Shown here one piece after another: positions 29,024 through 43,883 of a stretch of 64,000 nt of DNA. The position numbers were made by a program, and so were the translations under genes. Where the stretch lies: contig CANMQO010000004.1 of the NCBI GenBank assembly GCA_947500055.1, positions 1-64,000 of the forward strand, in the 5' to 3' direction. The stretch's first letter is position 1. Every line of letters begins with the position of its first letter. Source of the DNA: an uncultured Paracoccaceae bacterium (lineage in GTDB: Bacteria > Pseudomonadota > Alphaproteobacteria > Rhodobacterales > Rhodobacteraceae). The notes beneath the pieces are model-generated. The model saw only the letters and a list, made by a program, of their open reading frames with translations. It had not been told where the DNA came from and made no database searches.

Positions 29024-29069
29024 TTGGAGCGGGCGATGAGATTCGAACTCACGACCCTAACCTTGGCAA
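29024..29069 (-). repeat. att repeat: 3' fragment of tRNA-Gly (far end of island)
   Basis: 46 bases identical to 43808-43853, which is the 3' part of tRNA-Gly including CCA, acceptor 3' strand, T-arm and half of the anticodon stem-loop. Identity stops right after the anticodon loop (TTGGCAA). This is the expected product of integration into a tRNA 3' end by a tyrosine integrase crossing over at the anticodon loop. Confidence 0.92.
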
Positions 29070-29197
29070 TCTTTGGTTCGATCCGAAATTCCTTTTTTAC
29101 TGCGGTTGGTGGACAGCCCGGACTGACAATTGTGCCTCAGTTGGGGTTCGTACCGGGGCCAGATGAGACGGGATTTGGCAGTTTTGGCAGCAGATGA

Positions 29198-30343
29198 TCA
29201 AGCTATGGTAACTTCATGCGCCTCCCACATCTCAGGCGGTTCCAGTTTGCGTGCAAGATGATCAATCACAGCATCAGGTACTGCATCGGGCCGATCTCGG
29301 TTTTGTCGATGGACTTTGTTGGGACCGACTTCAACATAGACGATCTCAACCTTCGCTCCATAGTCCCGCAACAGCCGCAGCACTTTTGATCGGTTCAAGC
29401 GTGTCACGTTCGTCGCGTTCCACACAAAATCCGTGCCTTTGCGCAGATACTCTCGTGCCCGCTCATGGGCCGCTTGAATGACCTGACCTTGGTTGTCGGT
29501 GGCTGAGACACCGAGTTCATCGCGGATGAGGTCAAGGCTAACGACCGGGTGATATGGCCGGTTTTGCGCGATCCAAGTGTCTTTGCCAGACCCCGGCAGG
29601 CCGGACATTACAGTGACGGTGCAGGTGAAGTCAGCATGGGCGGCATAGTGTGGGTCCCGGTCCGGCAGATCGAAATAGGCGACACGGCTTTCGTCATTGG
29701 CAAAGGCGAATGGCGCATCGAAGCAACAAGCCTCTTGGAATGTGATCGCAGCAAGGCTGACACTCTCCAAGATCGCATCTTGATCCGCGCAGACCCGGCC
29801 CAGAGCATCTGCCTTGGCGTGCAGGCACAGGTGATCTGGCCTGCATCGCCATGATGTTTCAATCGCCATCCGCGTTGGATCAGGCCTTTCGATCAGCCAG
29901 AACGGCAATTGGTGGTGCGCGATGATCCCGCACAGCGCTTCTCGCCAAGCGAATGGTGATCCTGCATGCCAGAGCAATTGGCGGGCGATGGATGCGCCGA
30001 CACGGGAATGGCGGCGAGACGAGATGCGCCCGTCTTCCTCATGTTTGGTCACCGCAGGTTTGCCGATGTCATGCAGTACTGCCGCCCAAAACAGGTAGGT
30101 TTGATCGTCCCTTGCAAGGTTCCGCCAATAGGGTTCGGCAACCAACGCTTCGACTACCATCCGGGTATGCGTGCCGACATCACCTTCGGCATGATGGATC
30201 GGGCCCTGCGGGCAGGTGTCGAGCGCGGCCAGTTCTGGCCACAAGGGCCAGATTGCATCCCAATCGATCCGCCAAAGCGGACCGGTTGGAACCAGTAACA
30301 TCAGATCGTCATGGGTGTCACTGGCTCTTCTCAGTTTAGGCAT
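29198..30343 (-). CDS. HD-Pnk: HD phosphoesterase-polynucleotide kinase
   Basis: 381 aa from the ATG at 30343, which overlaps the RNA ligase stop by eight bases. The N-terminal HD domain carries AAVLHDIGKPAVTKHEED (His-Asp about 91-92) and IIAHHQLPFWL. The C-terminal P-loop kinase starts TVMSGLPGSGKDTWIAQ (about 246-260) with SLDLIRDELG and NATNVTRLNR. This is the layout of HD-Pnk end-healing enzymes: the HD part removes 2',3'-cyclic phosphate and the kinase phosphorylates 5'-OH. The product ends suit the ligase encoded next to it. Confidence 0.88.
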   Translation of the reverse strand: MPKLRRASDTHDDLMLLVPTGPLWRIDWDAIWPLWPELAALDTCPQGPIHHAEGDVGTHTRMVVEALVAEPYWRNLARDDQTYLFWAAVLHDIGKPAVTKHEEDGRISSRRHSRVGASIARQLLWHAGSPFAWREALCGIIAHHQLPFWLIERPDPTRMAIETSWRCRPDHLCLHAKADALGRVCADQDAILESVSLAAITFQEACCFDAPFAFANDESRVAYFDLPDRDPHYAAHADFTCTVTVMSGLPGSGKDTWIAQNRPYHPVVSLDLIRDELGVSATDNQGQVIQAAHERAREYLRKGTDFVWNATNVTRLNRSKVLRLLRDYGAKVEIVYVEVGPNKVHRQNRDRPDAVPDAVIDHLARKLEPPEMWEAHEVTIA

Positions 30344-31148
30344 CGTATGCGCCCTCCAAACCCAAAACTGGGGCAAAGATATCGACCCCGTCTGCCAAAG
30401 TATTCGGCAAAATAGGACGGTCATGCCAGTGGCCATCCGATGCCGCGATAGCTTGCAGGAAGTCGGCACGCACGAACTTGAACCGATCCACGACCCGATT
30501 TGCATCCTCCTGCTTCAGATAAAGGCCCTCGGCCAGATCACTATCCTCGGTCTGCTGATCTACCATGTCAGGGCGACTGCCCGACCGCCTTGCTGCAACC
30601 GTCAAGGCATCCCGCCAATCAGCGGACTTGTAGGGCGTGGGCCGGGTCATACTGTTGAGGTGATCAACAGATGTGACCTCGCCAGTGTGCACCACCGGTA
30701 CCGGCATAACCGGTAGGCCAGTCAGTAATGATCTGCGAGCCTCTGTACTCAAGAACACCCCGGTATCGCGATCCAGCACGTCAAATTCCATGAAGTAATG
30801 GGGTAGGCGATCATAGAACACGGTGTGCTTGGCATACATCCATTCGCCGTACATGACGAAACGATGGCCCAGCACCGGGTGCAGGACATGGGCGTGGGCC
30901 GCAGCCCATGTTTTGAGTAAGGCAAAGTGGCGCTCGCGGCCACCGCCATTCAAGAAATGCCCACGGCTTTGCAACAGCAGACTGCCGTCCACGTCGAAGG
31001 ACACGGCGGAATTGGCCCCGTCGAGTTTCTCTTCCAAGATTAGGTGTTCACCTGCGAGGTCCTTAATTGGTTTGTCGTCCGCCATATCGCCCACTTGAAG
31101 GCGCGAACCTTCAATGTGCCGCGTACGTGGGTATTTGTAGATATTCAT
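30336..31148 (-). CDS. RNA ligase (Rnl family, ATP-dependent)
   Basis: 270 aa. Nucleotidyltransferase motif I is EEKLDGAN, with the AMP-accepting Lys about residue 41. Motif III is in VMYGEWMYAKH, motif IV is EGLYLK (about 207-212), and motif V is RFKFVR (about 222-227). It seals 3'-OH/5'-phosphate RNA ends through ligase-AMP and RNA-AMP. Translationally coupled to HD-Pnk, it forms a heal-and-seal unit for RNA cut by ribotoxins. Confidence 0.9.
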   Translation of the reverse strand: MNIYKYPRTRHIEGSRLQVGDMADDKPIKDLAGEHLILEEKLDGANSAVSFDVDGSLLLQSRGHFLNGGGRERHFALLKTWAAAHAHVLHPVLGHRFVMYGEWMYAKHTVFYDRLPHYFMEFDVLDRDTGVFLSTEARRSLLTGLPVMPVPVVHTGEVTSVDHLNSMTRPTPYKSADWRDALTVAARRSGSRPDMVDQQTEDSDLAEGLYLKQEDANRVVDRFKFVRADFLQAIAASDGHWHDRPILPNTLADGVDIFAPVLGLEGAYDA

Positions 31149-31432
31149 AGTAGTCTCATGATGTTGTCATTGGTCGCACAAAGCCACCCGACGGCGAGCG
31201 TCAGGATGGATGATGAATATGTGCGCAAGAACTACATCGGACTTCCGTGGGGTTCGGGGTTGAGACAAGGTGGGTGCATTACCGCGACCCGGTTTAGTGA
31301 TCAAGGCATCAGTGTCGGGGTCGTTGATTGTGACGCAACCATGCAACGGCTCTAAAATCGCACTGTATTTTGGTGAAATGATAGCCCTCATTTGGACTTG
31401 CGCTGAGTTGCTATCCATCGTCATTTCGAACC
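31149..31432. other. divergent intergenic region between RNA ligase and PhyH genes
   Basis: 284 bases with no convincing gene. It must hold promoters for the leftward ligase pair and the rightward PhyH cassette. The minus-strand frame 31167-31424 has no recognisable domain and no clear start signal. No strong inverted repeat found. Confidence 0.4.
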
Positions 31433-32104
31433 ATGACTTTTGATATCAATCTGAAAAATGAATTAGAGGCGAGTGGACGGCTTTGGTTGAGAAATGCCAT
31501 CTCGGAAGATGACCTTGAACACTTCGATGCTGCCGCACTTCTTGACGCAAAGCCAGGTGCGCGCGTTAAGCCTTCACATGCCCTAAGTGCGGCATTGGAT
31601 GGTCAGGGGACGTTGATGCAATCTATCAGATCACTTGACCCGATGACGAAACCGGTCAGGACAGTGGCATTCAATAAGACGCCGGACACAAACTGGGGCG
31701 TCCCATGGCATCAGGATCGTGTCATTGCCGTAGCGGATAAGCATGAGGTTACTGGTTTTGATAAGTGGACCAATAAGTCTGGCGTTTGGCATTGTGAACC
31801 ACCTCAACATGTACTGGATGAGATGCTATTTGTACGGATTCATCTTGATGATACCGACCATGACAACGGCGCGATGGAAATAGCGGTTGGAAGCCATGTT
31901 CACGGTGTTGTTCCGGCTGCAAACGCCGCAGACACCGCTCTTCAACACCCAATCGAAAGCTGCGAAGCAAAACGTGGTGATGTCCTTGTTTTGAAGATGC
32001 TTACTCTGCATGGATCGAAACCTTCAAAGGTTTCGTCCAATCGTAGGGTTTTTCGTATCGATTTTGCTTCGAAAGACTTACCTGCCCCTTTAAGTTGGGG
32101 ATAA
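31433..32104 (+). CDS. phytanoyl-CoA dioxygenase (PhyH)-like oxygenase
   Basis: 223 aa. The iron site is probably the His-x-Asp of GVPWHQDRVIAV and the distal His of MLTLHGSKPSKV, followed by the 2-oxoglutarate-binding Arg of SSNRRVFRIDFA. DDTDHDNGAMEIAVGSHVHG is the usual PhyH lid. Cytoplasmic Fe(II)/2OG oxygenase; substrate unknown. It lies between RNA ligase and phosphatase genes in the island and is lower in GC than the repair genes. Confidence 0.82.
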   Translation: MTFDINLKNELEASGRLWLRNAISEDDLEHFDAAALLDAKPGARVKPSHALSAALDGQGTLMQSIRSLDPMTKPVRTVAFNKTPDTNWGVPWHQDRVIAVADKHEVTGFDKWTNKSGVWHCEPPQHVLDEMLFVRIHLDDTDHDNGAMEIAVGSHVHGVVPAANAADTALQHPIESCEAKRGDVLVLKMLTLHGSKPSKVSSNRRVFRIDFASKDLPAPLSWG

Positions 32105-32127
32105 CTAACGGGCAATATGCCACCGAG

Positions 32128-32463
32128 ATGAATATTCTCTTCATATGTAGCATGAACAAATGGCGCAGCCCCACGGGCGAAGCTATTTTTCGACGTCATG
32201 ACGGCGTGAACACCCGATCCGCTGGGACGAACAGCAAGGCACGGCGGCAAGTGAAGCTGGCTGATATCCAATGGGCCGATCGGATCTGCGTGATGGAAGA
32301 AAAGCATCAGTCACGCTTGCGGGCCGAGTTTCGGGGCGATGTGAAGCACAAGATCATCCACGTGCTCGACATACCCGACGACTATCAATTCATGGACCCT
32401 GAGTTGGTTGATCTGATCAGGGATGCGGTGGAACCGATGATTGAGGTCACAGCTAAACTCTGA
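32128..32463 (+). CDS. low-molecular-weight protein tyrosine phosphatase-like protein
   Basis: 111 aa from MNILFICSMNKWRSPTGEAI. The phosphate loop is CSMNKWRSPT (C-x5-R-S), with the acid candidate in HVLDIPDDYQFMDPEL. This is the short LMW-PTP group (about 110 aa) rather than the 150-aa McsB/Wzb type. It follows PhyH by 23 bases, same strand. Confidence 0.85.
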   Translation: MNILFICSMNKWRSPTGEAIFRRHDGVNTRSAGTNSKARRQVKLADIQWADRICVMEEKHQSRLRAEFRGDVKHKIIHVLDIPDDYQFMDPELVDLIRDAVEPMIEVTAKL

Positions 32464-32508
32464 TGCAACGCCACCCAATCAGTCCCACGCAAGGCATAAA
32501 GTAAGCAA

Positions 32509-33216
32509 ATGGAACCAATCATCTACGCAATAGGCGACGTACATGGACGTGACGATCTGCTGTCGGAACTCCATGAGCACATCCGCAATCATCATACATT
32601 ATTACACGCGAAGCGGTCTGCCGAAATCGTTCACGTCGGTGACTACATTGATGGAGGATCACAGAGCGTTGCGGTCTTGGACAGATTAATGACAGGCTTG
32701 GATGGGTTCTCTATGATATGTCTGCTTGGCAATCATGAGGCAATGATGTTGGAATGTCTTGCCACAGATAACCGCCAAGCATGGTACACGTGGTTGTCTA
32801 ACGGCGGTGAAGAAACCGTTTCATCGCTCGGCATCTCACTGCGGTTTGGCGGATATGATCCAAATGAATTGGCTGAGGCGTTGGGAGCGGAGCGTTTGAA
32901 ATGGCTCAAGTCACTGCCGCTTTCTCATGCTATTGACCCGTATATCTTTGTGCATGCTGGCATTGCTCCGGGCATTCCGTTGGATCAACAACAGCCCAAA
33001 GACTTACCTTGGATACGGTCGCGGTTTCTCGATAGTGATGTGGATCATGGATATATTGTAGTTCACGGCCATACGCCCGGTAATGACCCTGTTGTGAAAA
33101 ACAATCGTATTTGTGTGGATACTGGGGCCATATCAAATGGGTGCCTAACCGCTGCCGTGCTTGACGGAACGAATGCGCCACTGTTTTTGCGTGCTGTTGG
33201 CCAGCCGGAGAAATGA
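32509..33216 (+). CDS. PPP-type metallophosphatase (serine/threonine phosphatase/Ap4A hydrolase-like)
   Basis: 235 aa. Metal motifs are IGDVHGRDDLLSEL, VHVGDYIDGGSQS, LLGNHEAMML and VVHGHTPGND, in the standard GDxHG-GDxxDxG-GNHE-HGHT order. Ends with a variable tail. Such bacterial PPP enzymes act on phosphoproteins or dinucleoside polyphosphates. It is third in the PhyH/LMW-PTP run and converges with prfH. Confidence 0.9.
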   Translation: MEPIIYAIGDVHGRDDLLSELHEHIRNHHTLLHAKRSAEIVHVGDYIDGGSQSVAVLDRLMTGLDGFSMICLLGNHEAMMLECLATDNRQAWYTWLSNGGEETVSSLGISLRFGGYDPNELAEALGAERLKWLKSLPLSHAIDPYIFVHAGIAPGIPLDQQQPKDLPWIRSRFLDSDVDHGYIVVHGHTPGNDPVVKNNRICVDTGAISNGCLTAAVLDGTNAPLFLRAVGQPEK

Positions 33217-33280
33217 ACGTCATTTTGACGCCGCCGAAGTTGCTGAAACTGCGTTGTTCGGCAACGTCGACAGGCACCCA

Positions 33281-33925
33281 CTAGCGGTCTTTCACATCCT
33301 CCTTGAACCTTTCCCCAACAAACCGCCGCACTGGGCTGCCCCGCTCCAACGCCCGATGCATTTGGTTTTGGCTACTCTTACGATCTTCTTGATCAGCAAC
33401 GGCCTGCGCATCGGCAAGGCTTTGAAGTCGCTCCAAAGCCAGTGCTTTATTACGATGTTGGGATCGTGCCTCACGCACGACCACCGTCAGGCTGGATGGC
33501 TTGTGCACCGCCCGTACCGCGCTGTCAGTCGTATTCTGATGCTGCCCACCAGGACCACCAGCACGCAGGGTTGAGAAATTGACATCGGCTTGTCGGATGT
33601 TAGCGACCCCAGCTTGGGATTGTTCCAACAGGAAGACCCCGACGAACCAATTGGCCCGCTTGTGATGCTTGCGCAACTGACTTTGCATGCGCCACTGAAC
33701 AGTACCTGTCCACGACTTTGCAAATGCTGTACGGCCTTCGCCGTTCACCACAACCACCGCTGATTTAGGGCCATGTTTGGCCTCGGTCCGGTGGATCGAC
33801 AAAGCGAGGCCGAACATGTCGGCCTCCTCCTGCATCCGGTCGAGGATGTGTCCTACAGCCTGATTACATTCTGCAGGTCCATCGCCCGCCGTGACCAGCA
33901 GGGAGATGTGATCAATGCCCTTCAT
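33281..33925 (-). CDS. prfH: peptide chain release factor H
   Basis: 214 aa, shorter than RF1/RF2 because the codon-reading domain is reduced. The GGQ loop is TLRAGGPGGQHQNTTDSAVR, and the tail is basic. The start overlaps the rtcB stop (ATGA). Published work on RtcB2-PrfH pairs shows PrfH freeing peptides from ribosomes with a cut decoding-centre rRNA and RtcB2 rejoining the cut. The same pairing is present here. Confidence 0.93.
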   Translation of the reverse strand: MKGIDHISLLVTAGDGPAECNQAVGHILDRMQEEADMFGLALSIHRTEAKHGPKSAVVVVNGEGRTAFAKSWTGTVQWRMQSQLRKHHKRANWFVGVFLLEQSQAGVANIRQADVNFSTLRAGGPGGQHQNTTDSAVRAVHKPSSLTVVVREARSQHRNKALALERLQSLADAQAVADQEDRKSSQNQMHRALERGSPVRRFVGERFKEDVKDR

Positions 33926-35052
33926 CGCGATCCCTCCTTGCGTGTCTTCTTGAATGTCAGCAGCGGGTTCAGCGTGGCGATTCGGCGTGCCACACCCGTT
34001 GCTTCCAGATCAGATACGACGCTGTCGGCAGACTTATACGCTTGTGGAGCCTCCTCGATCAGCAGGTCCCGGTCTTCGCAGATGACGCGTCCGCCAAAAG
34101 GCGTTCGTTCCATCGCTGCGATGTCAGAGCGTTTACCACGCACCCGACCATGCATTGACGACCGGTCATACCGACGACCAGCCCCATGGGCTAGGGAAGC
34201 CAAGGCTGCATCCTGCCCAAGCGGCTGAACCAGATGACTCGACGTGGCCCGCGAACCAGCCACCGGTACCAGGTCGGCAGCCATGGCAGCGCCTTTGCGG
34301 TGCAACCAACCAGCCGGAGTTTCTGCCAAAATGTTGTGCGGCACATCGCTGATCAGCCGGACATCTGCCCGCAATGCCTCTGCGGCCCGTTCAGCAATGA
34401 TCTGACGGTTCAACATCGCCCAACGAACGGCGCTGTCGTGGCCAGCGACATAGCTCGCCGCGTCTTCGCTGCCTGGCATCAGCCCATCAAACGCGTCTTG
34501 TGGTAGAGCGTTCAACGTCGCTTCGCCCAGCCCACGTGACCCCGAATGGACCAGCAGGTAGGTAAGGCCCTGATCAAGACCACAACCTGTCTGAGGGTCC
34601 ACAAGTGTCTGGACCTCGCAGAAGTGATTGCCGCCGCCGATGGTGCCCAAGGCACCGGCAAACAGATCGGCAGACAGATTGATCTCTTCCAGTCGCCCTT
34701 CCAGCGACGTGTCCAGCGGTTCGCCCAACACTCTGATCCGTCGCACCGCCTTTTCCAGCTTGAGCTTGCGCACGGGCATGTCGAGTTGAAACAACGACAT
34801 CCCGCACCCAATGTCGTTGCCGATCAGTTGCGGATAGATGCGGGCGGCCAGTACCGCACAGCCCACCGGCCCGTATTTTCCGGGGTGCAGGTCGGGGAAC
34901 GCCGCGACTTTGGTGACACCAGCCCATGTGCTGACGTGTTTCAGTTGATCCTCTGCACGGCCTTCGATCCATGCGGAAGAGGTGTAGAAATTTGAGATGA
35001 TCCCGTCTGACTGCGATGCAGATAGACGGCCATCCATATCAGGATTGCCCAT
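33922..35052 (-). CDS. rtcB: RNA ligase RtcB (RtcB2-type, PrfH partner)
   Basis: 376 aa, the short form linked to prfH. Motifs are HPGKYGPVGCAV, LIGNDIGCGMSLFQ, IGGGNHFCEV, VHSGSRGLG, GSRATSSHLV and the GMP-accepting His in LAHGAGRRYDRSSMHGR. RtcB joins 2',3'-cyclic phosphate or 3'-phosphate to 5'-OH ends with GTP and Mn. No archease gene is seen nearby. It probably repairs ribosomal RNA in concert with PrfH. Confidence 0.93.
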   Translation of the reverse strand: MGNPDMDGRLSASQSDGIISNFYTSSAWIEGRAEDQLKHVSTWAGVTKVAAFPDLHPGKYGPVGCAVLAARIYPQLIGNDIGCGMSLFQLDMPVRKLKLEKAVRRIRVLGEPLDTSLEGRLEEINLSADLFAGALGTIGGGNHFCEVQTLVDPQTGCGLDQGLTYLLVHSGSRGLGEATLNALPQDAFDGLMPGSEDAASYVAGHDSAVRWAMLNRQIIAERAAEALRADVRLISDVPHNILAETPAGWLHRKGAAMAADLVPVAGSRATSSHLVQPLGQDAALASLAHGAGRRYDRSSMHGRVRGKRSDIAAMERTPFGGRVICEDRDLLIEEAPQAYKSADSVVSDLEATGVARRIATLNPLLTFKKTRKEGSR

Positions 35053-35318
35053 TGGTATGGTTCCGTATTCGTATGTTCTGGAATGGCCAGACGGCCAGTA
35101 TGATCACGCCGGATCAGCTTTGCTGATTTAGCTTGTGGTGCGCCCGATGAGGGTGGCTGTGATACTGGTCATGTGCTGCCCTCCTGTTTGCGTTACGAAC
35201 GAAACCGATCTTTCGGTAACACGGACGTAGAGCATTCATCTTTTTCAAGCAACTTGAATGAACGCTGTGTAGCTTGCTGTTGCGGAATTGCAGCAGCTTT
35301 GTCGTCGCTTGCTGATGA

Positions 35319-35699
35319 TCAATGGTCAATATCACCCAGCGGACCAGCAAGCAGACCCTTTGGTAGCTCATACCCACAGTCTGCGCACATCTTTGCCTTC
35401 GGTGTTCTGAACGGTTTTGAACACCGTGGGCACAGTGATCCGTAGAATTTCATCTGAATGGCCCAGAGTTGGTCAGGATGTTCAAGGCGGACGCCAGTCA
35501 GTTCTTCATATTTGTCCAGTGCTGACATTCCAATTGGTTCGCGCTTTCTCGCCTCTTCAATAGAGCAACCGGTCTCGGTCCTATATTTTTTGATCCATGT
35601 CAGGCGATCTTGCAGCAAGGGTGCGATAACAGACCATTCACCTTCGTCCAGAAGCGCTGCTTCGCGACCGATGCGATAAGCATAAGTTATGAACGGCAT
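35319..35699 (-). CDS. uncharacterised zinc-ribbon protein within the RNA repair operon
   Basis: 126 aa from MPFITYAYRIGREAALLDEG, chosen because GGAGAG precedes it. Residues about 20-95 are helical (SVIAPLLQDRLTWIKKYRTE, then SALDKYEELTGVRLEHPDQL). A zinc ribbon ends the protein: LCPRCSKPFRTPKAKMCADC (CxxC-x12-CxxC), followed by GYELP. I do not recognise the family. It starts 36 bases after the pnkp stop and precedes rtcB, on the same strand, so it belongs to the repair transcript and may be an RNA- or ribosome-binding accessory. Confidence 0.75.
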   Translation of the reverse strand: MPFITYAYRIGREAALLDEGEWSVIAPLLQDRLTWIKKYRTETGCSIEEARKREPIGMSALDKYEELTGVRLEHPDQLWAIQMKFYGSLCPRCSKPFRTPKAKMCADCGYELPKGLLAGPLGDIDH

Positions 35700-35734
35700 G
35701 TGCTTCTCTCCGTAACCTTGCGGCACAAATATGC

Positions 35735-38290
35735 TTACAGTCGTGGATCAACAGGCTCGCTTTCCAACGCCAGAACCGCCAACGCGCATTCATGGACCTT
35801 GGACAGCGGCAGCGCCTCGACGAACCGATGCAGCCCCTCGAAACCGAGCTTGAATTCGCGTTCAGCGAGTGAGAATTTTCGGCCCAACCCGCGTTGTCGC
35901 AACCTGTCGATGTTCTCTGGCAGGTCATAGTCAGGCCCGTAGATGATCCGCAAATAGTCGCGTCCACGTACTTTCATCGCGGGTTGGATCAAGCCCTTTT
36001 CGCCGCGTTGCGTAAACGCGTTGGGTTTGAAGACCAAGCCTTCGCCGCCTTTGTCGGTATGTGCCATCCACCACGCAACAACCGCTTCGCGATCTTCGAC
36101 GTTGTTCAGGTCAATCTGTTTCCAGCCCGTGGTCTGCAAGATCGGATCAGCATCCGCCAGTTTTGTGAGGGTTTCCATGTGCCATGTATGTGGCTTTTCG
36201 CCGTGAACCTGCCCCTCGGTTGCCAAGATGTGGAACGGAGCGATGCGGTAATCTTCGATACTGTCAGCTGCCCAGCAGTAGCCATCAATCGTTTGACCCA
36301 TCAGCGATGCATTGGACAACCGCGCCTCAGTTTGCGTCTTGAGCGCATCCAGCCCGTCAATGTCACCGGCTTGGCTTATTGCCGCCAAAAGCGCCGAAGC
36401 CGAGGATTTGGCAGCAGCAACGGTGGGCAGGTATTGCCGTTTGAGCAAATCCTGCGCCTTGGCTGACCATGGCATCAATTCGGCATCGAGTAGGACCCAA
36501 TCGGTTTCAAGCGCATCCCATAGACCTGACGTCTGCATCGCGGTGCCGACACGGGCGACCACAGCAGCCTCCATACTTTCGTCCTTGAAGAAAGGGCGAC
36601 CAGTACGGGTGAAGATCACGCCAGCCTTGCCATCTTCGACGCCAAACCGGGTTTGGGCGGCCTCTGCATTCTTGGCAATAACCAAGAGCGCACGCGATCC
36701 CATGTGCTTTTCTTCAACGACAATGTCGGTCACACCTCGGCTGGCATAATGATCCATCGCTTGGTCAGGGTGTTCAAGGAACGGACCCTCGGTCGCGGTC
36801 GGACAGGCGGCCATCGTCGGTGGCAAATAGATCAGCCAACGGGGATCAACGGCAAAACGGCTCATCACCTCCAAAGCCGCAAGGGCGTTCTCCTCTGGGA
36901 TTTGCAGTGTGGATTTGAACCGCGTCTCAATCCGCATCTTGGTGGCGTAGTCATCAAAGTAGAGCAGGCGATCATGATCCTGTTGCGCTGACAACGACTG
37001 ATCCGCGTCCAGCGGTTTCGCCGGTACTGCGTATTGTGCCTTTGCTTTGACAGACAGTGTTTCCCGTTCCGGCCATCGCAGGGCCGTCAGCTTGCCACCA
37101 AACACACAGCCGGTGTCGATACACATCGTGTGGTTCAGCCACTCGGCCTCTGCCATCGGGGTATGTCCAAAGACGACATCGGCCTTACCGCGATAGTCTC
37201 GTGCCCATTCCAGTCTGACTGGCAAGCCAAACTCATCAACCTCGCCAGTTGTTTCACCAAACATCGCGAAATTGCGCACATGGCCTGACCCACGCCCGTG
37301 CATTTCCTCTTTCAGACCCGCGTGGGCGATGACCAATTTGCCGTCAGCAAGCCATGCATGAGACCTTAGGTTCCAGATGAAGTCTGCGGCCTGTTTGCGG
37401 AACGCATCCGACGTCTGTTCGAGTTCCGCAACGGTCAGGTCCAACCCATGCGTTTGCATCACAGACCGGCCCTTGAGCCATTTGTTCAACTTGAAGTCGT
37501 GATTGCCCACGACGCAGTGCCCTGAACCTTCGTCACACATGCCCATCACAAGGCGCAAAGCATCCAAGTTGCGCGGGCCGCGATCTGTTATGTCACCAAC
37601 AAAGAAGGCCCTGCGGCCTTCGAGGTGACGAGCACGGATTAGGTCCTCGGCATCTGTTTCAAATGGGTCAATCTGATACCCAAGATCACCCAGCAATTCG
37701 GTCAGTTCATCAAAGCAGCCGTGAATATCACCGATAATGTCAAACGGCCCATGATCAGTTCGATTGTCCGTCCACAATGGTTCGCGAGAGATGTCGAGCG
37801 CATCAACCTCCTCCGGCGACTTCATGATCTGAACTTGGCGGAACCCTTCCTTTCGCAAACCGCGCAGGCCACGTCGCAGCGCCTTAGCGTGGTTGCGGGG
37901 CACATGTTCGCCAAAGTCGCGGTTGGGACGCTGCTGGTTGCGCTCATGGCAAATCTTTGTGTCAATATCCAAAACCAACGCCACTGGCAGAGCATGATAC
38001 TTGCGGGCCAGTTGGACGAGCTTTGCCCGGTCTTCCCGTTTGACAGACGTGGCATCAATGACCGTCATCAATCGGCGTTTCAGACGGATCGACGCCGTGT
38101 AGTTGAGCAAGTCAAACGCATCACCTGTCGCGGCAAGATCGGTTTCATCATCGGACACTAATGCCCGGCAATGGTCCGAGGACACGATTTCGGTTTCAAG
38201 AAAGTGCTTGCGTGCAAAGCTGGATTTGCCGGACCCAGTGGAACCGATCAGAACAACAAGGGCGTAGTCGGGAATAGAAATCTTTGCCAT
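35735..38290 (-). CDS. pnkp: polynucleotide kinase-phosphatase (bacterial Pnkp)
   Basis: 851 aa, three domains. Kinase: P-loop LIGSTGSGKSSFARK (about 14-28). Phosphatase: metallophosphoesterase GDIHG (187-191), GDITDRG (232-238), GNHD (262-265) and GHTP (375-378). C-terminal ligase-like adenylyltransferase with the Lys of VVEEKHMGSRALLV (about 528). Known Pnkp-Hen1 complexes heal both RNA ends, 2'-O-methylate the 3' end, and seal, which protects the site from a second cut. The start directly abuts the rlaP stop. Confidence 0.95.
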   Translation of the reverse strand: MAKISIPDYALVVLIGSTGSGKSSFARKHFLETEIVSSDHCRALVSDDETDLAATGDAFDLLNYTASIRLKRRLMTVIDATSVKREDRAKLVQLARKYHALPVALVLDIDTKICHERNQQRPNRDFGEHVPRNHAKALRRGLRGLRKEGFRQVQIMKSPEEVDALDISREPLWTDNRTDHGPFDIIGDIHGCFDELTELLGDLGYQIDPFETDAEDLIRARHLEGRRAFFVGDITDRGPRNLDALRLVMGMCDEGSGHCVVGNHDFKLNKWLKGRSVMQTHGLDLTVAELEQTSDAFRKQAADFIWNLRSHAWLADGKLVIAHAGLKEEMHGRGSGHVRNFAMFGETTGEVDEFGLPVRLEWARDYRGKADVVFGHTPMAEAEWLNHTMCIDTGCVFGGKLTALRWPERETLSVKAKAQYAVPAKPLDADQSLSAQQDHDRLLYFDDYATKMRIETRFKSTLQIPEENALAALEVMSRFAVDPRWLIYLPPTMAACPTATEGPFLEHPDQAMDHYASRGVTDIVVEEKHMGSRALLVIAKNAEAAQTRFGVEDGKAGVIFTRTGRPFFKDESMEAAVVARVGTAMQTSGLWDALETDWVLLDAELMPWSAKAQDLLKRQYLPTVAAAKSSASALLAAISQAGDIDGLDALKTQTEARLSNASLMGQTIDGYCWAADSIEDYRIAPFHILATEGQVHGEKPHTWHMETLTKLADADPILQTTGWKQIDLNNVEDREAVVAWWMAHTDKGGEGLVFKPNAFTQRGEKGLIQPAMKVRGRDYLRIIYGPDYDLPENIDRLRQRGLGRKFSLAEREFKLGFEGLHRFVEALPLSKVHECALAVLALESEPVDPRL

Positions 38291-39109
38291 TCATGCCACT
38301 CCCAGCGATGATCGGTTCACGATAGCATGCAGAATGTCATTGCCTTCCGCCATGAGGTCCGGGCGTTCTTCTAGCTTGGCCACGACGTTTGCCCATGCGA
38401 TCTGTTCGTGAATGAAGGCATCAATCATCGGGATGCGTTCACCTCGTCCGATCTCTTTTGCTGACGCCTTCGCGATAAGCAATTGCTCGATTTGTGCCAC
38501 GAGAGCATCGTCCAATGATTGCCCTGCGACGAGCGCCTGTAGGTTCATTGGCGGCTGTACCGTCGGGTTCTGTTTGATCCATGAGATCGCGAGGGCCGGA
38601 CGCAAGATGTAGAAATACTTCTTCAACGGCACATCGGTATTGTCGCCGACGTGCTTATCCCACTGCTTCACAGCTAGATTGCGGTAGTGATGCAGGCAGC
38701 TTTCGCCAAATGTCGTCTTGTCGGCAAAGCGTGTCAGGCGGGCGCAAATATCTTCGTTCCAGCGGTACCGGATCGGACTGGACAGCCATTCTAACATTAC
38801 CGGGTTGGGTTTGATCAGCAGACCCAACGCCTTGCGAATATCCCAACCGTTGATGTCCCAGTCGCCTTCGATGGGCAATTCGATGACATCGCGTCCCGGC
38901 TCGATGCTCAGATACCAGTTGGGTTTGTGCGCATAGATGAACCGCACATCATAGTCGCTGTCCGGCGATGGGAAGCCCCATGCGCGGCTACCGCTTTCGA
39001 TGGCAAACAGGATGCGAACATCGTGATCAGCCTCTAAAGCGGCCAATTTGGATTGAATGGTAGCTTCAATGTCGGGCGCGACTGATGGCACGAATGGTGG
39101 CAAGGTCAT
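38291..39109 (-). CDS. nucleotidyltransferase RlaP (RNA-ligase-associated Pol-beta family)
   Basis: 272 aa. Nucleotidyltransferase core ILFAIESGSRAWGFPSPDSD, then YDVRFIY, giving the GSxxWG and DxD catalytic pattern. Helical C-terminal part with HHYRNLAVKQW and KKYFYILRPALAISWI. COG3541-like proteins found with RtcB and Pnkp were named RlaP and suggested to add or remove nucleotides at damaged RNA ends; activity unproven. Starts four bases inside hen1, ends at pnkp. Confidence 0.87.
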   Translation of the reverse strand: MTLPPFVPSVAPDIEATIQSKLAALEADHDVRILFAIESGSRAWGFPSPDSDYDVRFIYAHKPNWYLSIEPGRDVIELPIEGDWDINGWDIRKALGLLIKPNPVMLEWLSSPIRYRWNEDICARLTRFADKTTFGESCLHHYRNLAVKQWDKHVGDNTDVPLKKYFYILRPALAISWIKQNPTVQPPMNLQALVAGQSLDDALVAQIEQLLIAKASAKEIGRGERIPMIDAFIHEQIAWANVVAKLEERPDLMAEGNDILHAIVNRSSLGVA

Positions 39110-40509
39110 TGGGCACCCTCCTGATTGAATATCGCCATCTGCGAGGGACCTCCACGGGTGTCGTCCACTGGCCCCACTGGGGCAAAACTGACAGAGTAGC
39201 CATGCTCCTCAGCTACGCCCGTGGCCCAGCTTTCAAATTCGGCGCGTGTCCACTCGAAACGATGATCGGGATGGCGTAGCTTGCCATCCTTCAGCCCTTC
39301 GAACAGAGCGTTGTATTCTCGGTTTGGTGTCGTCATCACAACAATTTTCGGGCGGGCATCTGCAAACAGTGACAGCACCAACGCCGATAGCCGGTGCGGT
39401 TCGATATGTTCGATCACCTCGACCAACGTTGCCGCATCAAACCCCTGCCAACGCCGGTCACCGTAGGTCAGGCTGCCCATCTGCAAGGAGATACGAGACG
39501 CCATAGCATCGCCAGCCTGATGCAGCCGTAATTTGCGATGGGCGGCTTCCAAAGTCCGTACCGAAGGGTCCACGCCGACGATACGGTCAATGCCACGTTC
39601 TTTGATCAGCCGGGCGATGAGCTTGCCCTCACCACACCCCAGATCAAGGACCGAACTGACCTTGTTCTGCTTGAGTACTTCAGCCACGGTGTCTAGCCGC
39701 AAGGCATGCAGTCGTAGCGGCTGTTCAAGCTGTTCCTCAGGCTTCAGCTTGGGCGTCTCTTCATCCTCGTTTTCGCGCGTCATGCCTTCCTCAAGGCGTG
39801 CGAGGGCCAGGTTCATCAACGACCGGCGATGTTTCAACGCCCGTCTTGTGATCAGTTCTTTGTCTGGGTGATCGGCCAACCAGCCCTCACCCTTCGCCAG
39901 CAATTTGTCGATCTCTTCTTCACTGACATAGTAGTGTTTGAAATTGTCGAGTACTGGGATCAGCACATAAAGGTGGTTGAGCATATCGGCCAAACGGATG
40001 GTGGCACGGACTTGCAGGGCAACGACATAGTCGTCTTCTTGTACCGTCACAGTGTATCCCAAAGGCGCGAACAGCCGTTCGACGAGGTCGAGATCACCCG
40101 AAAGGGCCAAGGGGACAATGCGGACTTCAAATGGTAGCGCCTGATCGGCAAGGGCTTGTCGGTCTTTCGACTTGCCTGCCATGGATTGCGCAAAGGCGCG
40201 AGCCAATGCGACTGAAAGGAAAGAACTTGCAACGTATGGACGGTCGTTGACGTACTGGGCCAATAGCCCATCGCTTTGTTGGTTCTTACCGCGCACAAGG
40301 CCAACCGGATCAACGTCCAGATGCAGGACGGCCGTTGTGCGCTCTTGCGACTTCTCGGTGAAGAAAATTGTAACGTCGCCTGCGGACGTGCCCCGCGTGT
40401 GCAAATGATCAGGGTGTTTGTGCAGCAAAAAGCCAAGATCAGTCGCTGAATACTCGGCGGACGGCAGTGCTGTAAGCGTGATCTCGATCTGCATAGGTCT
40501 TTGCTTCAA
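39106..40509 (-). CDS. hen1: 3'-terminal RNA ribose 2'-O-methyltransferase Hen1
   Basis: 467 aa. The N-terminal Hen1-specific region (MQIEITLTALPSAEYSATDL to about 250) activates Pnkp ligation. The C-terminal SAM domain has SVLDLGCGEGKLIARLIKER, GVDPSVRTLEAAHRK and the metal motif LVEVIEHIEPHRLSAL (E-x2-E-H-x4-H). It methylates the 2'-OH of the 3' nucleotide at a break before sealing. First gene of the repair operon after the XRE gene. Confidence 0.95.
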   Translation of the reverse strand: MKQRPMQIEITLTALPSAEYSATDLGFLLHKHPDHLHTRGTSAGDVTIFFTEKSQERTTAVLHLDVDPVGLVRGKNQQSDGLLAQYVNDRPYVASSFLSVALARAFAQSMAGKSKDRQALADQALPFEVRIVPLALSGDLDLVERLFAPLGYTVTVQEDDYVVALQVRATIRLADMLNHLYVLIPVLDNFKHYYVSEEEIDKLLAKGEGWLADHPDKELITRRALKHRRSLMNLALARLEEGMTRENEDEETPKLKPEEQLEQPLRLHALRLDTVAEVLKQNKVSSVLDLGCGEGKLIARLIKERGIDRIVGVDPSVRTLEAAHRKLRLHQAGDAMASRISLQMGSLTYGDRRWQGFDAATLVEVIEHIEPHRLSALVLSLFADARPKIVVMTTPNREYNALFEGLKDGKLRHPDHRFEWTRAEFESWATGVAEEHGYSVSFAPVGPVDDTRGGPSQMAIFNQEGAQ

Positions 40510-40587
40510 ATGACAAAATATTGTGCCCCCGCAGTATCAACCTCGGAGGTTTCCTACAACATCTCATGGTTGTTGAAAGTGGCGTGA

Positions 40588-41103
40588 CTATGACCGGAAC
40601 ATTGCTCGGATGATCCCGATATGACGATTTGGATCGAACGAGGCCTTTGGATCGCTGACGATGTGACCGATCTCAAGCTGGTAAAGTTCGGTTATAGCTG
40701 CCGACATCTTCTCAGGCGACGGTTTCGCGTCGCATTCGTTTACGACTTGCTGGACCGCCTCTACCACCTTTCGCAACCGGTCGAGATCGATTGTTGAGGG
40801 CTTTGTCACGACGGTGCCCTCAACCAGTGCAGATGCAGACACGCCATAGAGTGCTGCCAAGACCTCCAAGCGGTCGATGGTGACCTTTGCGAGGCCATTT
40901 TCCATGCGAGAAAAACTCGCGCCGCTGATGCCAATACTGGCAGCGGCCCTTTCCAATGTGAGACCCGCGCGTTCACGGGCTTCTTTAAGTGTGTCGTGGA
41001 TCGCCACTGGTTTCGTCTCGGCTGCAATTTCACTCCTACCATTACATTTTTCGTAACGCTTGGGAAGTCCAAGCAAGTAATTCGCAAAGTACTGGCGAAT
41101 CAC
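40588..41103 (-). CDS. XRE-family transcriptional regulator
   Basis: The frame gives 171 aa from a GTG at 41103, but that codon lies inside the 31-bp inverted repeat at 41075-41105, so a later start is likelier, for example GTG 41007 giving 139 aa starting VAIHDTLKEARERAGLTLER. HTH: LTLERAAASIGISGASFSRM, then ENGLAKVTIDRLEVLAALYG. C-terminal helical domain. Upstream of hen1 in the same direction, with a 78-base gap; likely controls the repair operon. Confidence 0.82.
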   Translation of the reverse strand: MIRQYFANYLLGLPKRYEKCNGRSEIAAETKPVAIHDTLKEARERAGLTLERAAASIGISGASFSRMENGLAKVTIDRLEVLAALYGVSASALVEGTVVTKPSTIDLDRLRKVVEAVQQVVNECDAKPSPEKMSAAITELYQLEIGHIVSDPKASFDPNRHIGIIRAMFRS

Positions 41104-41105
41104 TT
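41075..41105. promoter_or_regulatory. 31-bp inverted repeat between divergent HTH genes (operator candidate)
   Basis: AAGTAATTCGC (41075-41085) and GCGAATCACTT (41095-41105) match in 10 of 11 positions around a 9-base centre. It sits between the XRE gene and the rightward HTH gene, where a cI/cro-like switch would bind. Confidence 0.6.
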
Positions 41106-41120
41106 ACGCAAAACGTAATA

Positions 41121-41372
41121 ATGGAATTCATGACACTTGGTAACTCCCTGGTCTCCCGAAACACCTCAATGGCAGCGTTTGCGGCGATGGTGGACACGAC
41201 AACAGCCACGATCAGTCGAGTGGCTGACGGCTCCGTTGTCCCAAGAAAAGACCTCATGCGGCGTATCCATGATGCCACCGACGGGTTGGTCACGCCAAAC
41301 GACCTTACCGGACTGCATGGCAATGAGCGGGCCAAAATTGACGTTGAGAAGGAGGAAACTGATGACGAATAG
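41121..41372 (+). CDS. small HTH (Cro/YdaS-like) protein
   Basis: 83 aa from MEFMTLGNSLVSRNTSMAAF. The helix-turn-helix reads AAFAAMVDTTTATISRVADG and is followed by RKDLMRRIHDATDGLVTPND, as in Cro/YdaS-type proteins that choose their operator by a short acidic loop. Divergent from the XRE gene with the inverted repeat between them. Its end overlaps the next gene by 11 bases. Confidence 0.72.
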   Translation: MEFMTLGNSLVSRNTSMAAFAAMVDTTTATISRVADGSVVPRKDLMRRIHDATDGLVTPNDLTGLHGNERAKIDVEKEETDDE

Positions 41373-41637
41373 TCGTTGGCTATTGTGGGCCGGGCCATTG
41401 GTCGTCGTTGGTGTCTTAGGGTTTTCATGGATGATGGAAGCCGGGATGAAAGAGCAAGTTCGGCAGTGCTTGAAGGAGAACTGGCAAGCCAACGGCCAAG
41501 ATCATCTCTATTTGAGTGCGGTCGTCTCTGATACGCGAGGGGGATCGTTCCCGAACGGTACCACACTCCATTACATCGAATACAAGACGCGTGGCGATGA
41601 TCGGATCAAGACGACAACATGCGGGTGGGATTGGTAA
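41362..41637 (+). CDS. small membrane-anchored protein
   Basis: 91 aa, start preceded by AAGGAGG. One N-terminal transmembrane segment (WLLWAGPLVVVGVLGFSWMM), then a short exported domain with two Cys (RQCLKENWQA, TTCGWDW). No known family. Translation is coupled on both sides: its start lies in the HTH gene and its stop overlaps the next ATG (TAATG). Confidence 0.7.
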   Translation: MTNSRWLLWAGPLVVVGVLGFSWMMEAGMKEQVRQCLKENWQANGQDHLYLSAVVSDTRGGSFPNGTTLHYIEYKTRGDDRIKTTTCGWDW

Positions 41638-42770
41638 TGCAACATGTTGCGCACTTTCCAACACCTCGAAGGGCAAATTACATTAGGCGGACCGTAGCCT
41701 CATTATTATTGCTCGTAGCCCTATCGGCCTGCAGTGCTGGGGCACCTGTGCTGCCATCAGATGGATTGCCGAACCCCGGTATCAGCTTCTTCGACGCAAC
41801 GGCAAGGAAAGCCGCGTTGCGTTCAACATCCTGCGACCCTTATCAGCCGCCCTCATTAGCCAGCTTCCAGCCAAGCGTGATCAACGGTACCGGAGGTTGG
41901 TCCGGCTTCTCTCGGCAGCCACGTGCCTTCGCTGAGGCCGTCAACGGTGTCGCCATGCAGTATCTCGATACCAGTAACCCGATCTACGCAAACGACGCGA
42001 TCAAAAATCTACGCCGGTTTGCGGATGCAGATGCGTTTCAACTGCGCGGAAAGAACAATGCGTCGGCCTATGCCGCCGGTCAGGCCATTCAGTTCCTGCT
42101 CCCTGCATGGCAGGTCTTACTGACCTATCAAGGCCTCACAGCGGGCGACAAAGCCGCCATTGAGCCATGGCTGCTCCGCATGGTGGAGCGCAACCACCGT
42201 GAACGGCCCGACCGCAATAACCACAACACCTCGAAGGCAATGACGCGGGTGCTGGCCGGTGCAACCTTCAACCGTCCCGACTGGTTCGAAAGCGGCGTGC
42301 GGGACGGATACTTCGATCAGATTGATCAGCTTCGCCCAGATGGGAGCTTCCCGTTCGAGACGGCACGCGGTCAGTGGGGTGTGGTCTATCAGAGCCGGAA
42401 CATCGCGCATCTGGTCACCATTGCGGAGACCGCCCGCAATCAAGGCATCGACCTCTACGACTATGCTCCGAATGGTGTGTCTTTGCATGACGCCATCCGT
42501 TCCTTGATCGCCGCCAATGACAACCACAGCCTGATCGACGGCTACGCCCAAGCGAACCAGTTTGTCCCGGATGATTACGCCACCTTCCAGTTCGACGCTC
42601 AAAGGGACCCATTTGCTGGACATGACACGTCGTGGGTACCGGTTTATGCTCGGCGATTCGCAGGCACGCCTCTTGCCGCTGTCTTGCGGTCTCGCAAACC
42701 TCCGACAGCCAACCAAGGCATCCGTTACCCCCCGGTCAGTGGCAATGTCACTTGTATGGTGGGCCTTTAG
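41637..42770 (+). CDS. alginate-lyase-like lipoprotein
   Basis: 377 aa from the ATG in TAATG at 41635-41639. The lipoprotein signal ends in LLLLVALSACSAG (lipobox LSAC). The mature part is alpha/alpha-barrel-like, with NNHNTSKAMTRVLAGATFNR and LRPDGSFPFETARGQWGVVY, which match the Asn-His-centred catalytic region of PL5-type alginate lyases. It may cleave alginate or a related uronate polymer at the cell envelope. Cargo unrelated to RNA repair. Confidence 0.72.
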   Translation: MQHVAHFPTPRRANYIRRTVASLLLLVALSACSAGAPVLPSDGLPNPGISFFDATARKAALRSTSCDPYQPPSLASFQPSVINGTGGWSGFSRQPRAFAEAVNGVAMQYLDTSNPIYANDAIKNLRRFADADAFQLRGKNNASAYAAGQAIQFLLPAWQVLLTYQGLTAGDKAAIEPWLLRMVERNHRERPDRNNHNTSKAMTRVLAGATFNRPDWFESGVRDGYFDQIDQLRPDGSFPFETARGQWGVVYQSRNIAHLVTIAETARNQGIDLYDYAPNGVSLHDAIRSLIAANDNHSLIDGYAQANQFVPDDYATFQFDAQRDPFAGHDTSWVPVYARRFAGTPLAAVLRSRKPPTANQGIRYPPVSGNVTCMVGL

Positions 42771-42772
42771 AT

Positions 42773-43153
42773 TTGGGGCCAGCGCCAAGACCAATTTCCA
42801 TCGATATCGAACCAACCTCCACTGAAAGGCAGGCGATCTACGAACGATTGCTGGAACGTCAGCAGATCAGGATCGCGGCCCGCTTGCCGCGTTTGGACAT
42901 CCCGATGCTATATCGTCGCAAGCTGCACCAACTGCGATGCCGAAATTTCAATGACTTGCTGGGACCATATTTGGATGCCGCGTTCGGCAGCATTACCGAG
43001 CCACCAAACGGTTATGGTGGTCGTATCCTTGCAACGGTCCGGGGCTACCGAGCCGCGCGTCTGGCGTTGTTCAACGCGACCGGCATAACTGACCCACTGC
43101 GAGACGACCCCGATTTTGCAGCACTGGCTGAGGTAAGGTTCCCGACGCAATAG
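42773..43153 (+). CDS. hypothetical protein, about 126 aa
   Basis: Open frame continuing directly after the lyase-like gene, possibly from TTG 42773. Contains RQAIYERLLERQQIRIAARL and FNDLLGPYLDAAFGS, mainly helical and charged. No family recognised, and the start is uncertain because no ATG is well placed. Similar codon use to its neighbours supports a gene. Confidence 0.45.
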   Translation: MGPAPRPISIDIEPTSTERQAIYERLLERQQIRIAARLPRLDIPMLYRRKLHQLRCRNFNDLLGPYLDAAFGSITEPPNGYGGRILATVRGYRAARLALFNATGITDPLRDDPDFAALAEVRFPTQ

Positions 43154-43364
43154 GTCAGCTACTGAAGAGCCATTATCGTTAAAAGCAATAGTTCAGCGCT
43201 CAAGGCATGCCCGCGATAAGACAACAATGACTTCGGTCGGTTGTTTCTCATACCATCCATCACCATATCAACTGCGCCAGCGAGGTTGCTGTGCCGTCCA
43301 AGGGTTTCAGCCCCTGTACGCTCAGGAGGGTGTTTGATGTGTGAACGAAGTAGTCGGCCGTTGA
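43154..43364. other. non-coding stretch before the integrase remnant
   Basis: No gene supported. Probably the eroded N-terminal part of the island integrase and its promoter; frames in all directions lack known domains. Confidence 0.35.
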
Positions 43365-43721
43365 CATGAGGGCCTAGCGGCAGACCTTGCCGAGCTTCCA
43401 AGAGAGTCTGAGTGGGTTTTTCCGGCTAGATTTGATAAGACAAAACACATGGACAACTATCGCAAGTCGCTGAATTCGGCTGTTAAACGGTCCGGTGTTC
43501 AACGCTTGGGCAAACCGATGCGCTTTACTCCGAAATTCGCTCGGAAAGCCTTTACATCTTACCAATGGATAAAAGGCACGCCGCTTGAGTTGATCAAGAA
43601 GATGGTCGGGCACTCACCAAATTCGAGGGTGACAGAGCGCAACTACCTGTTTTTGCCCGACTGTGCTGTCAAAGAAGCAATGTTTGAACTGGATATGTCG
43701 CCAAAGAAAACCGACACGTAA
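43365..43721 (+). pseudogene. tyrosine integrase, C-terminal remnant
   Basis: The in-frame reading before the first ATG (43449) already belongs to the protein: GLAADLAELPRESEWVFPAR, then FDKTKHMDNYRKSLNSAVKR. The catalytic end follows: RFTPKFARKAFTSYQWIKG, MVGHS and VTERNYLFL with the nucleophile Tyr. An upstream TGA and loss of the N-terminal two thirds mark it as dead. It ends about 90 bases from tRNA-Gly, as expected of the integrase that targeted it. Confidence 0.75.
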
Positions 43722-43754
43722 ATGGTAGCATTTGGCAGTTTTCTGAAACACGAA

Positions 43755-43774
43755 GGGCCACCCTAAGGTGGCCC
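43755..43774 (-). terminator. island-borne terminator behind tRNA-Gly
   Basis: GGGCCACC-CTAA-GGTGGCCC, on the minus strand followed by TTCGTGTTT. It copies the design of the hairpin at 28974-28993 outside the island. The island therefore restored not only the tRNA 3' end but also its terminator. Confidence 0.7.
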
Positions 43775-43807
43775 TTTATCGTAACTAACTGGGTTTGTTA
43801 GTTTAAA

Positions 43808-43853
43808 TTGGAGCGGGCGATGAGATTCGAACTCACGACCCTAACCTTGGCAA
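43808..43853 (-). repeat. att repeat inside the intact tRNA-Gly
   Basis: 46 bases identical to 29024-29069; covers the tRNA from the anticodon loop to CCA. Confidence 0.92.
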
Positions 43854-43883
43854 GGTTATGCTCTACCCCTGAGCTACGCCCGC
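43809..43883 (-). tRNA. tRNA-Gly (GCC)
   Basis: Acceptor GCGGGCG with CGCCCGC, discriminator T, CCA encoded. D-arm GCTCAGGGGTAGAGC, anticodon arm TAACC-TTGCCAA-GGTTA giving GCC, T-arm GTGAG-TTCGAAT-CTCAT. It is the integration site of the RNA repair island, and its 3' part is now supplied by the island side. Confidence 0.95.

Follow-up and report, generated by a model that had tools for sequence, protein, structure and literature searches.

A tRNA-Gly genomic island that brings together three different RNA repair systems in an uncultured Paracoccaceae bacterium

In one route of RNA repair, HD-Pnk and the RNA ligase Rnl heal and then seal broken ends, a pair reportedly known from the Shuman laboratory. 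Two further repair systems have been described. RtcB2-PrfH confers resistance to colicin E3 in E. coli (PMC9223846), and the PrfH-RtcB pair has been interpreted as linking rescue to repair and as spreading horizontally, sometimes with added zinc-ribbon and charged proteins (PMC6514570). In the bacterial Pnkp-Hen1 system, RNA is healed, methylated and sealed, and Hen1 turns on the ligase of Pnkp (PMC4411300). In this work we analysed a stretch of 64,000 nucleotides (hereafter the window; positions 1 to 64,000 of contig CANMQO010000004.1, assembly GCA_947500055.1) from an uncultured Paracoccaceae bacterium, in which all three systems lie within one genomic island at a tRNA-Gly gene. Every repair part of this island is already known, but their combination in a tRNA island appears to be new; among the literature matches listed, no title or opening of an abstract mentions a triple cluster or such a tRNA island.

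The island is bounded by an exact 46-bp direct repeat (29024-29069 and 43808-43853) that cannot be extended by one base on either side, encloses 14.8 kb and corresponds to the 3′ end of tRNA-Gly(GCC). Since tRNA prediction places this tRNA-Gly, the integration site, at 43809-43883 on the minus strand, the right copy is the 3′ end of the tRNA and the left copy a displaced remnant. A 33-bp core of the repeat, with up to two mismatches allowed, occurs at just these two sites in the 3.97-Mb genome (G000; genomes and loci carry our own labels, and the window is G000:C4:1-64000), while a reversed control gave none. The G+C fraction is 0.548 in the island interval versus 0.575 and 0.590 in the window flanks. 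The original prediction, which had been made from the window alone and had proposed an island with these borders, is thus correct in its coordinates, but it also called the element mobile, which is not supported. A search of the island for an intact integrase found only a C-terminal fragment of a tyrosine recombinase (43401-43721, plus strand), which matches PF00589 over positions 91-165 with 24.9 bits, below the cut-off of 27.1. The 90-amino-acid (aa) open reading frame (ORF) of this fragment has no Pfam match by itself, and the fragment has no match among phages. Because only this C-terminal piece is left, the element looks fixed, and the acquired island is now probably immobile. Scans for promoters and terminators did no better than shuffles (6 versus 9.5 and 16 versus 15, respectively).

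Comparison with 12 genomes of the same genus (G001-G012) supports acquisition at this site. In ten of them (G002-G011) the distance from hisB to tRNA-Gly(gcc) is 0.79-1.40 kb, versus 15.7 kb in the window; two of the ten hold two such tRNAs, and the distance was taken to the nearer. The island is absent from these ten genomes and their site is unoccupied, which agrees with the predicted tRNA-Gly island and rules against the same genes standing in the same place in all close relatives. One genome (G001, 190 contigs) was left out of the count because the tRNA match there is at the end of a contig. The remaining one (G012), in which hisB and the tRNA are on separate contigs, has another island at the same tRNA-Gly, with an intact tyrosine integrase that begins about 120-200 bp behind the tRNA, bears no likeness to the recombinase fragment of the window, and is followed by a coupling-protein-like gene. 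The site is therefore used by other elements as well. We also examined 11 tRNA-bearing loci of relatives for traces of the ancestral border. The repeat, sought with a requirement of 20 exact letters at one end, is present in one copy (44-46 of 46 letters) in eight loci, and was not found in L065, L068 and L070. The sequence behind the tRNA, aligned to the left flank of the window, scored above the best of 100 shuffles in three loci (L062, L068 and L070), equal to it in two and under it in six. In all 11 the left-flank score was at least as high as the island-side score (with two ties), and the sole clear left-flank score, 37 in L070, was accompanied by 33 against the island side. The ancestral border leans to the left flank, no more.

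The repair genes of the island all lie on the minus strand and, together with two further genes, are transcribed in the order XRE regulator, Hen1, RlaP, Pnkp, zinc ribbon, RtcB, PrfH, Rnl and HD-Pnk. Each repair gene is a single open frame, and every repair enzyme has the expected catalytic motifs, given here under their usual names. The spacing from Hen1 through RlaP and Pnkp to the zinc ribbon is -4, 0 and +8 bp, that of RtcB and PrfH is -4 bp and that of Rnl and HD-Pnk is -8 bp; wider gaps separate the zinc ribbon from RtcB (266 bp) and PrfH from Rnl (2.1 kb). The first module comprises an HD-Pnk-like protein of 381 aa (29198-30343; Pfam HD 3.6e-9 and AAA_33 9.1e-23 for a 435-aa ORF; motifs HDIGK and GLPGSGK) and an RNA ligase, Rnl, of 270 aa (30336-31148; Pfam RNA_ligase 8.5e-33; KLDG motif), whose genes overlap by 8 bp. 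On account of this overlap, the ATG at 30343 is more likely to be the start of HD-Pnk than 30505. No match to Rnl was found among PDB sequences up to an E-value of 0.1. The second module consists of a release factor, PrfH, with its GGQ motif (33281-33925; TIGR03072 184.8 bits, cut-off 166.65; best PDB match PrfH 9mor, 1.2e-38), and an RtcB ligase of the PrfH-associated type with its active-site motifs (33922-35052, 376 aa). This RtcB passes TIGR03073 (328.2 bits, cut-off 271.8), and with 386.7 bits it misses the NF007153 cut-off of 407 by 20 bits. The third module holds a Pnkp with kinase, phosphatase and ligase domains (35735-38290, 851 aa; TIGR04075 1243 bits, cut-off 750; PDB matches for all three domains), the nucleotidyltransferase RlaP (38291-39109; Pfam RlaP 1.2e-84), and Hen1, with an N-terminal ligase-associating region and a methyltransferase (39106-40509, 467 aa; TIGR04074 600 bits, cut-off 340; Hen1_L 9e-84). 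These gene identities had been proposed from the letters and stand up in Pfam, with PrfH, Pnkp and Hen1 also exceeding the cut-offs of NCBIfam equivalog models; the three proposed sets of differing end chemistry are present. PADLOC, run on ten island proteins without RlaP, returned just weak Cas3-HD and MADS matches.

Each module can be compared with its closest known system. An HD domain followed by a P-loop kinase in one protein is what we take to define the HD-Pnk family, and this domain order, in a gene that adjoins an RNA ligase, leads us to place the first module with HD-Pnk/Rnl from its sequence. As in the RtcB2-PrfH module (PMC9223846; PMC6514570), a paired-type rtcB adjoins prfH in one operon, here with an overlap of 4 bp and a PrfH above its cut-off, whereas the pair in the island, judged by its genes, sits with two other ligase systems. 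Like the bacterial Pnkp-Hen1 system (PMC4411300), the third module has a full-length Pnkp with a ligase domain and a Hen1 with its N-terminal region (Hen1_L) in one gene string, but it differs in the RlaP gene between them and the zinc-ribbon protein after them.

We think it likely that the island is an RNA-repair stronghold with three parallel routes that mend RNA cut by ribotoxins. After insertion at tRNA-Gly by a tyrosine recombinase since reduced to a fragment, the first route would use HD-Pnk to heal the ends, by removing the 2′,3′-phosphate and phosphorylating the 5′-OH, and Rnl to seal them. In the second, PrfH would free the peptide from a damaged ribosome and its RtcB would directly join cyclic-phosphate and 5′-OH ends. 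In the third, a Hen1-Pnkp complex would heal, 2′-O-methylate and seal, so that the same cut could not recur, and RlaP would perhaps refill lost nucleotides. Because the routes accept and leave different ends, a host that combines them could withstand more kinds of toxin. What this analysis observes is the insertion, the identity of the genes, their catalytic motifs and close spacing, and the recurrence of the clusters; the reactions are assigned by analogy with work on the families, and that the three modules act together and protect the host is something we only infer.

The combination is rare. In a survey of 390 genomes of the order, made with a profile tool that scores first candidates only and so may miss some, full-length Hen1 exceeded its cut-off in 9 genomes, PrfH in 19 (23 at E ≤ 1e-35), and HD-Pnk reached E ≤ 1e-30 in 14; among these, the gene carries a stop in G208, is spread over two frames in G311 and is decayed in G234. 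Nineteen of these genomes have a Hen1 C-terminal methyltransferase without the N-terminal half (178-210 bits, starting at about model positions 249-267 and running to 462), e.g. at G261:C2:2728744-2729337. Among phages, none of 80 records with a match covers 80% of Pnkp. All three of Hen1, PrfH and HD-Pnk occur in three genomes (the window's, G250 and G311), versus a chance expectation of 0.016, and in each they form one cluster, with the match starts of HD-Pnk and Hen1 9.9-12.4 kb apart. The earlier description of the set as unusual is thus right only in part: it is rare, but not unique to this island.

A competing explanation, which we consider possible but doubtful, is that three unrelated defence modules simply piled up in an integration hotspot and share no functional link. 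Such hitch-hiking would fit three observations: in G012 this tRNA-Gly is taken by another island, whose integrase is intact; the island of the window also carries alginate-lyase-like cargo; and genomes that have one module mostly lack the others. It is less easily reconciled with the co-occurrence of the modules, which is above chance even when the window's genome is removed: among the remaining 389 genomes, Hen1 and PrfH share five (P 6e-6), Hen1 and HD-Pnk three (P 0.0015) and PrfH and HD-Pnk five (P 1.2e-4), with P values uncorrected for kinship. Moreover, where modules share a genome they are mostly clustered, in 4/6, 4/4 and 5/6 genomes for these pairs, respectively, with the window's genome included. 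Hen1-Pnkp and RtcB-PrfH also lie within 8 kb on plasmid pSR-1 of Skermanella rosea, in the order Hen1, Pnkp, RtcB, PrfH as in the window, although three hypothetical genes, one on the opposite strand, separate Pnkp from RtcB, and no RlaP or HD-Pnk match was found in that stretch. On one Rhizobium leguminosarum megaplasmid, relatives of Pnkp, RtcB and HD-Pnk are 170-540 kb apart.

Several observations nevertheless weigh against a stronghold of cooperating routes. Hen1 and PrfH are 1.2 Mb apart or on different contigs in G059 and G190, PrfH and HD-Pnk are on different contigs in G076, and in the stretches retrieved from G004, G008 and G012, HD-Pnk/Rnl is unaccompanied by the other modules; the modules therefore need not act jointly. 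In G234, G311 and an uncultured Jannaschia (L012), HD-Pnk is in pieces or decayed. The co-occurrence may stem from shared ancestry or from hitch-hiking in defence islands. Finally, the role of the island against ribotoxins is a predicted one.

Among the closest known systems are also the repair superclusters of roseobacters (L046/L045, L051/L050, L047, L048/L049 and L012), in which the families of the island are packed into stretches of about 9 kb (L012) to 19 kb (G250). In Aliiroseovarius (G250), about 19 kb carry Rnl, HD-Pnk, RtcB, PrfH, a BCS1-like AAA gene, RtcR, Ro60, RtcB1, Hen1, RlaP and Pnkp, and in Boseongicola (G311) the same content, with an HD-Pnk spread over two frames, takes up about 16 kb. 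In both, a fourth system, RtcR-Ro60-tRNAs-RtcB1, accompanies the triple set. No HD-Pnk match was found in the supercluster of a Roseovarius (G146); in Roseobacter insulae (G234), Rnl persists alongside remnants of HD-Pnk and RtcB, and PrfH gave no match; and the Jannaschia locus lacks the RtcR operon but otherwise holds the set, its HD-Pnk broken into two pieces and RlaP giving no match. Parts are thus missing or broken in all but G250, and with HD-Pnk in pieces or decayed in the genomes G311, G234 and Jannaschia, the only intact triple cluster seen besides that of the window is the one in G250. Unlike the island, the superclusters have the BCS1-like AAA gene and, except in L012, the RtcR-Ro60-RtcB1 operon.

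These similarities raise the question of whether the island arose from a single ancestral roseobacter supercluster by rearrangement and reduction, which we regard as unlikely. The gene set is the same, and in a concatenate of Hen1, Pnkp and RlaP the window falls next to the supercluster clade with weak support (81/81), a grouping that the approximately unbiased (AU) test does not reject (p 0.24). In the tree of Pnkp alone the window stands apart from the superclusters (97/95), and grouping them is again not rejected (AU p 0.19); the HD-Pnk and Rnl trees give no resolved placement. An independent origin of all three modules is thus not upheld, and only RtcB supports it. The RtcB of the window clusters with those of the same-genus genome G152 and of G059 (100/99), and the AU test rejects a grouping with the supercluster type (p-AU 0.0001), a value that is optimistic because the groups were named after the trees had been seen. 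Gene order and strands also differ between the island and the superclusters. Since RtcB belongs to another lineage and the gene order differs, the combination is, as judged from these comparisons, at least partly assembled anew. For these trees, segments with stops or covering less than 75% of the query (70% for the concatenate) were removed, as were second copies of one locus and identical rows. HD-Pnk from G311 and L012 and Pnkp from L020, all of them split, are therefore missing; the AU tests for RtcB and Pnkp were additionally run without L060, L061, L091 and L092.

Some RNA ligases process host RNA, but housekeeping RNA processing in place of toxin defence is very improbable here, given that the modules are rare and patchy and that the host has a separate RtcR-Ro60-RtcB1 locus.

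The remaining genes of the island fall into two groups. On the plus strand between PrfH and Rnl lie a PhyH-family dioxygenase-like protein of 223 aa (31433-32104; Pfam PhyH 4.7e-12), a small low-molecular-weight (LMW) phosphatase-like protein (32128-32463 from its ATG, in an ORF that opens at TTG 32095; Pfam LMWPc 8.5e-7; CX5RS motif) and a calcineurin-like phosphatase of 235 aa (32509-33216; Pfam Metallophos 1.1e-13). The first two have counterparts in G152, with 89% identity in the same setting and 85% identity over 86%, respectively. Genes from the island's left half (HD-Pnk, Rnl, LMW-phosphatase, PhyH, PrfH and RtcB) recur in that genome at 82-89% identity, beside RtcR and RtcB1 and away from any tRNA-Gly; no tRNA was found in its repair-cluster stretches, where a reverse transcriptase gene (PF00078; L077:16476-17900) adjoins RtcB. 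This arrangement bears on a broader idea, which we hold to be rather improbable: that repair modules of different chemistry repeatedly co-assemble into portable superclusters for broad ribotoxin immunity, with PhyH and LMW-phosphatase as accessory enzymes that would act on damaged RNA ends or on the modification made by a toxin. PhyH homologues (E ≤ 1e-25) occur in 30 of the 390 genomes, and among the 30 stretches around them (2.6-3.7 kb) other island genes were found only in the window and G152, which makes PhyH a weak candidate for a general repair partner; L021 has one further homologue, close to Hen1-Pnkp. With 412 matches, of which 120 were listed, the LMW-phosphatase family is so large that its name proves little.

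The other genes surround the Hen1-RlaP-Pnkp string. The zinc-ribbon protein, 8 bp behind Pnkp (35319-35726, minus strand; CX2C-X11-CX2C; Pfam DZR_2 0.002, under the cut-off), matches 15 proteins at E ≤ 0.001, its own copy counted, and has no similarity to the small Skermanella protein behind Pnkp. The XRE-type regulator lies 78 bp upstream of hen1 (40588-41103, minus strand; Pfam HTH_31 3.1e-13). Farther on, an alginate-lyase-like protein, apparently a lipoprotein by its N-terminus (41619-42770, plus strand; Pfam Alginate_lyase 4e-33), is followed by a small protein with an uncertain start and no Pfam match (42632-43153, plus strand; 33% identity over 123 aa to L018, E 1e-19). Relatives of the latter are found near HD-Pnk clusters (L018:19476-19922 and L074:11570-11974), with XRE-like regulator matches in the same stretches. 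In L018 (3261-12553), a tyrosine integrase gene lies between HD-Pnk/Rnl and Hen1-RlaP-Pnkp, with a resolvase further along; this is possibly another mobile repair set.

The fourth repair locus of the host (L129:4083-10730, G000:C5) encodes RtcR-Ro60-RtcB1, with tRNA-Pro(cgg) and tRNA-Gln(ttg) between Ro60 and RtcB1. Genes for tRNA-Lys, -Asn, -Gln or -Pro occupy this position in the roseobacter-type repair clusters L003, L006, L007, L008, L010, L011, L020, L023, L051 and L090, while none was found there in L093. Such tRNAs may serve as replacements or decoys. In Anabaena, one repressor controls both a tRNA array and rtcB (PMC10272220).

Whether bacteria combine repair chemistries in response to the different ways in which attackers cut RNA is a question for which the island offers a natural test. 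As three systems that were studied apart in the cited papers are here contained in one deletable 14.8-kb island, their additivity or synergy would be measurable in a single strain.

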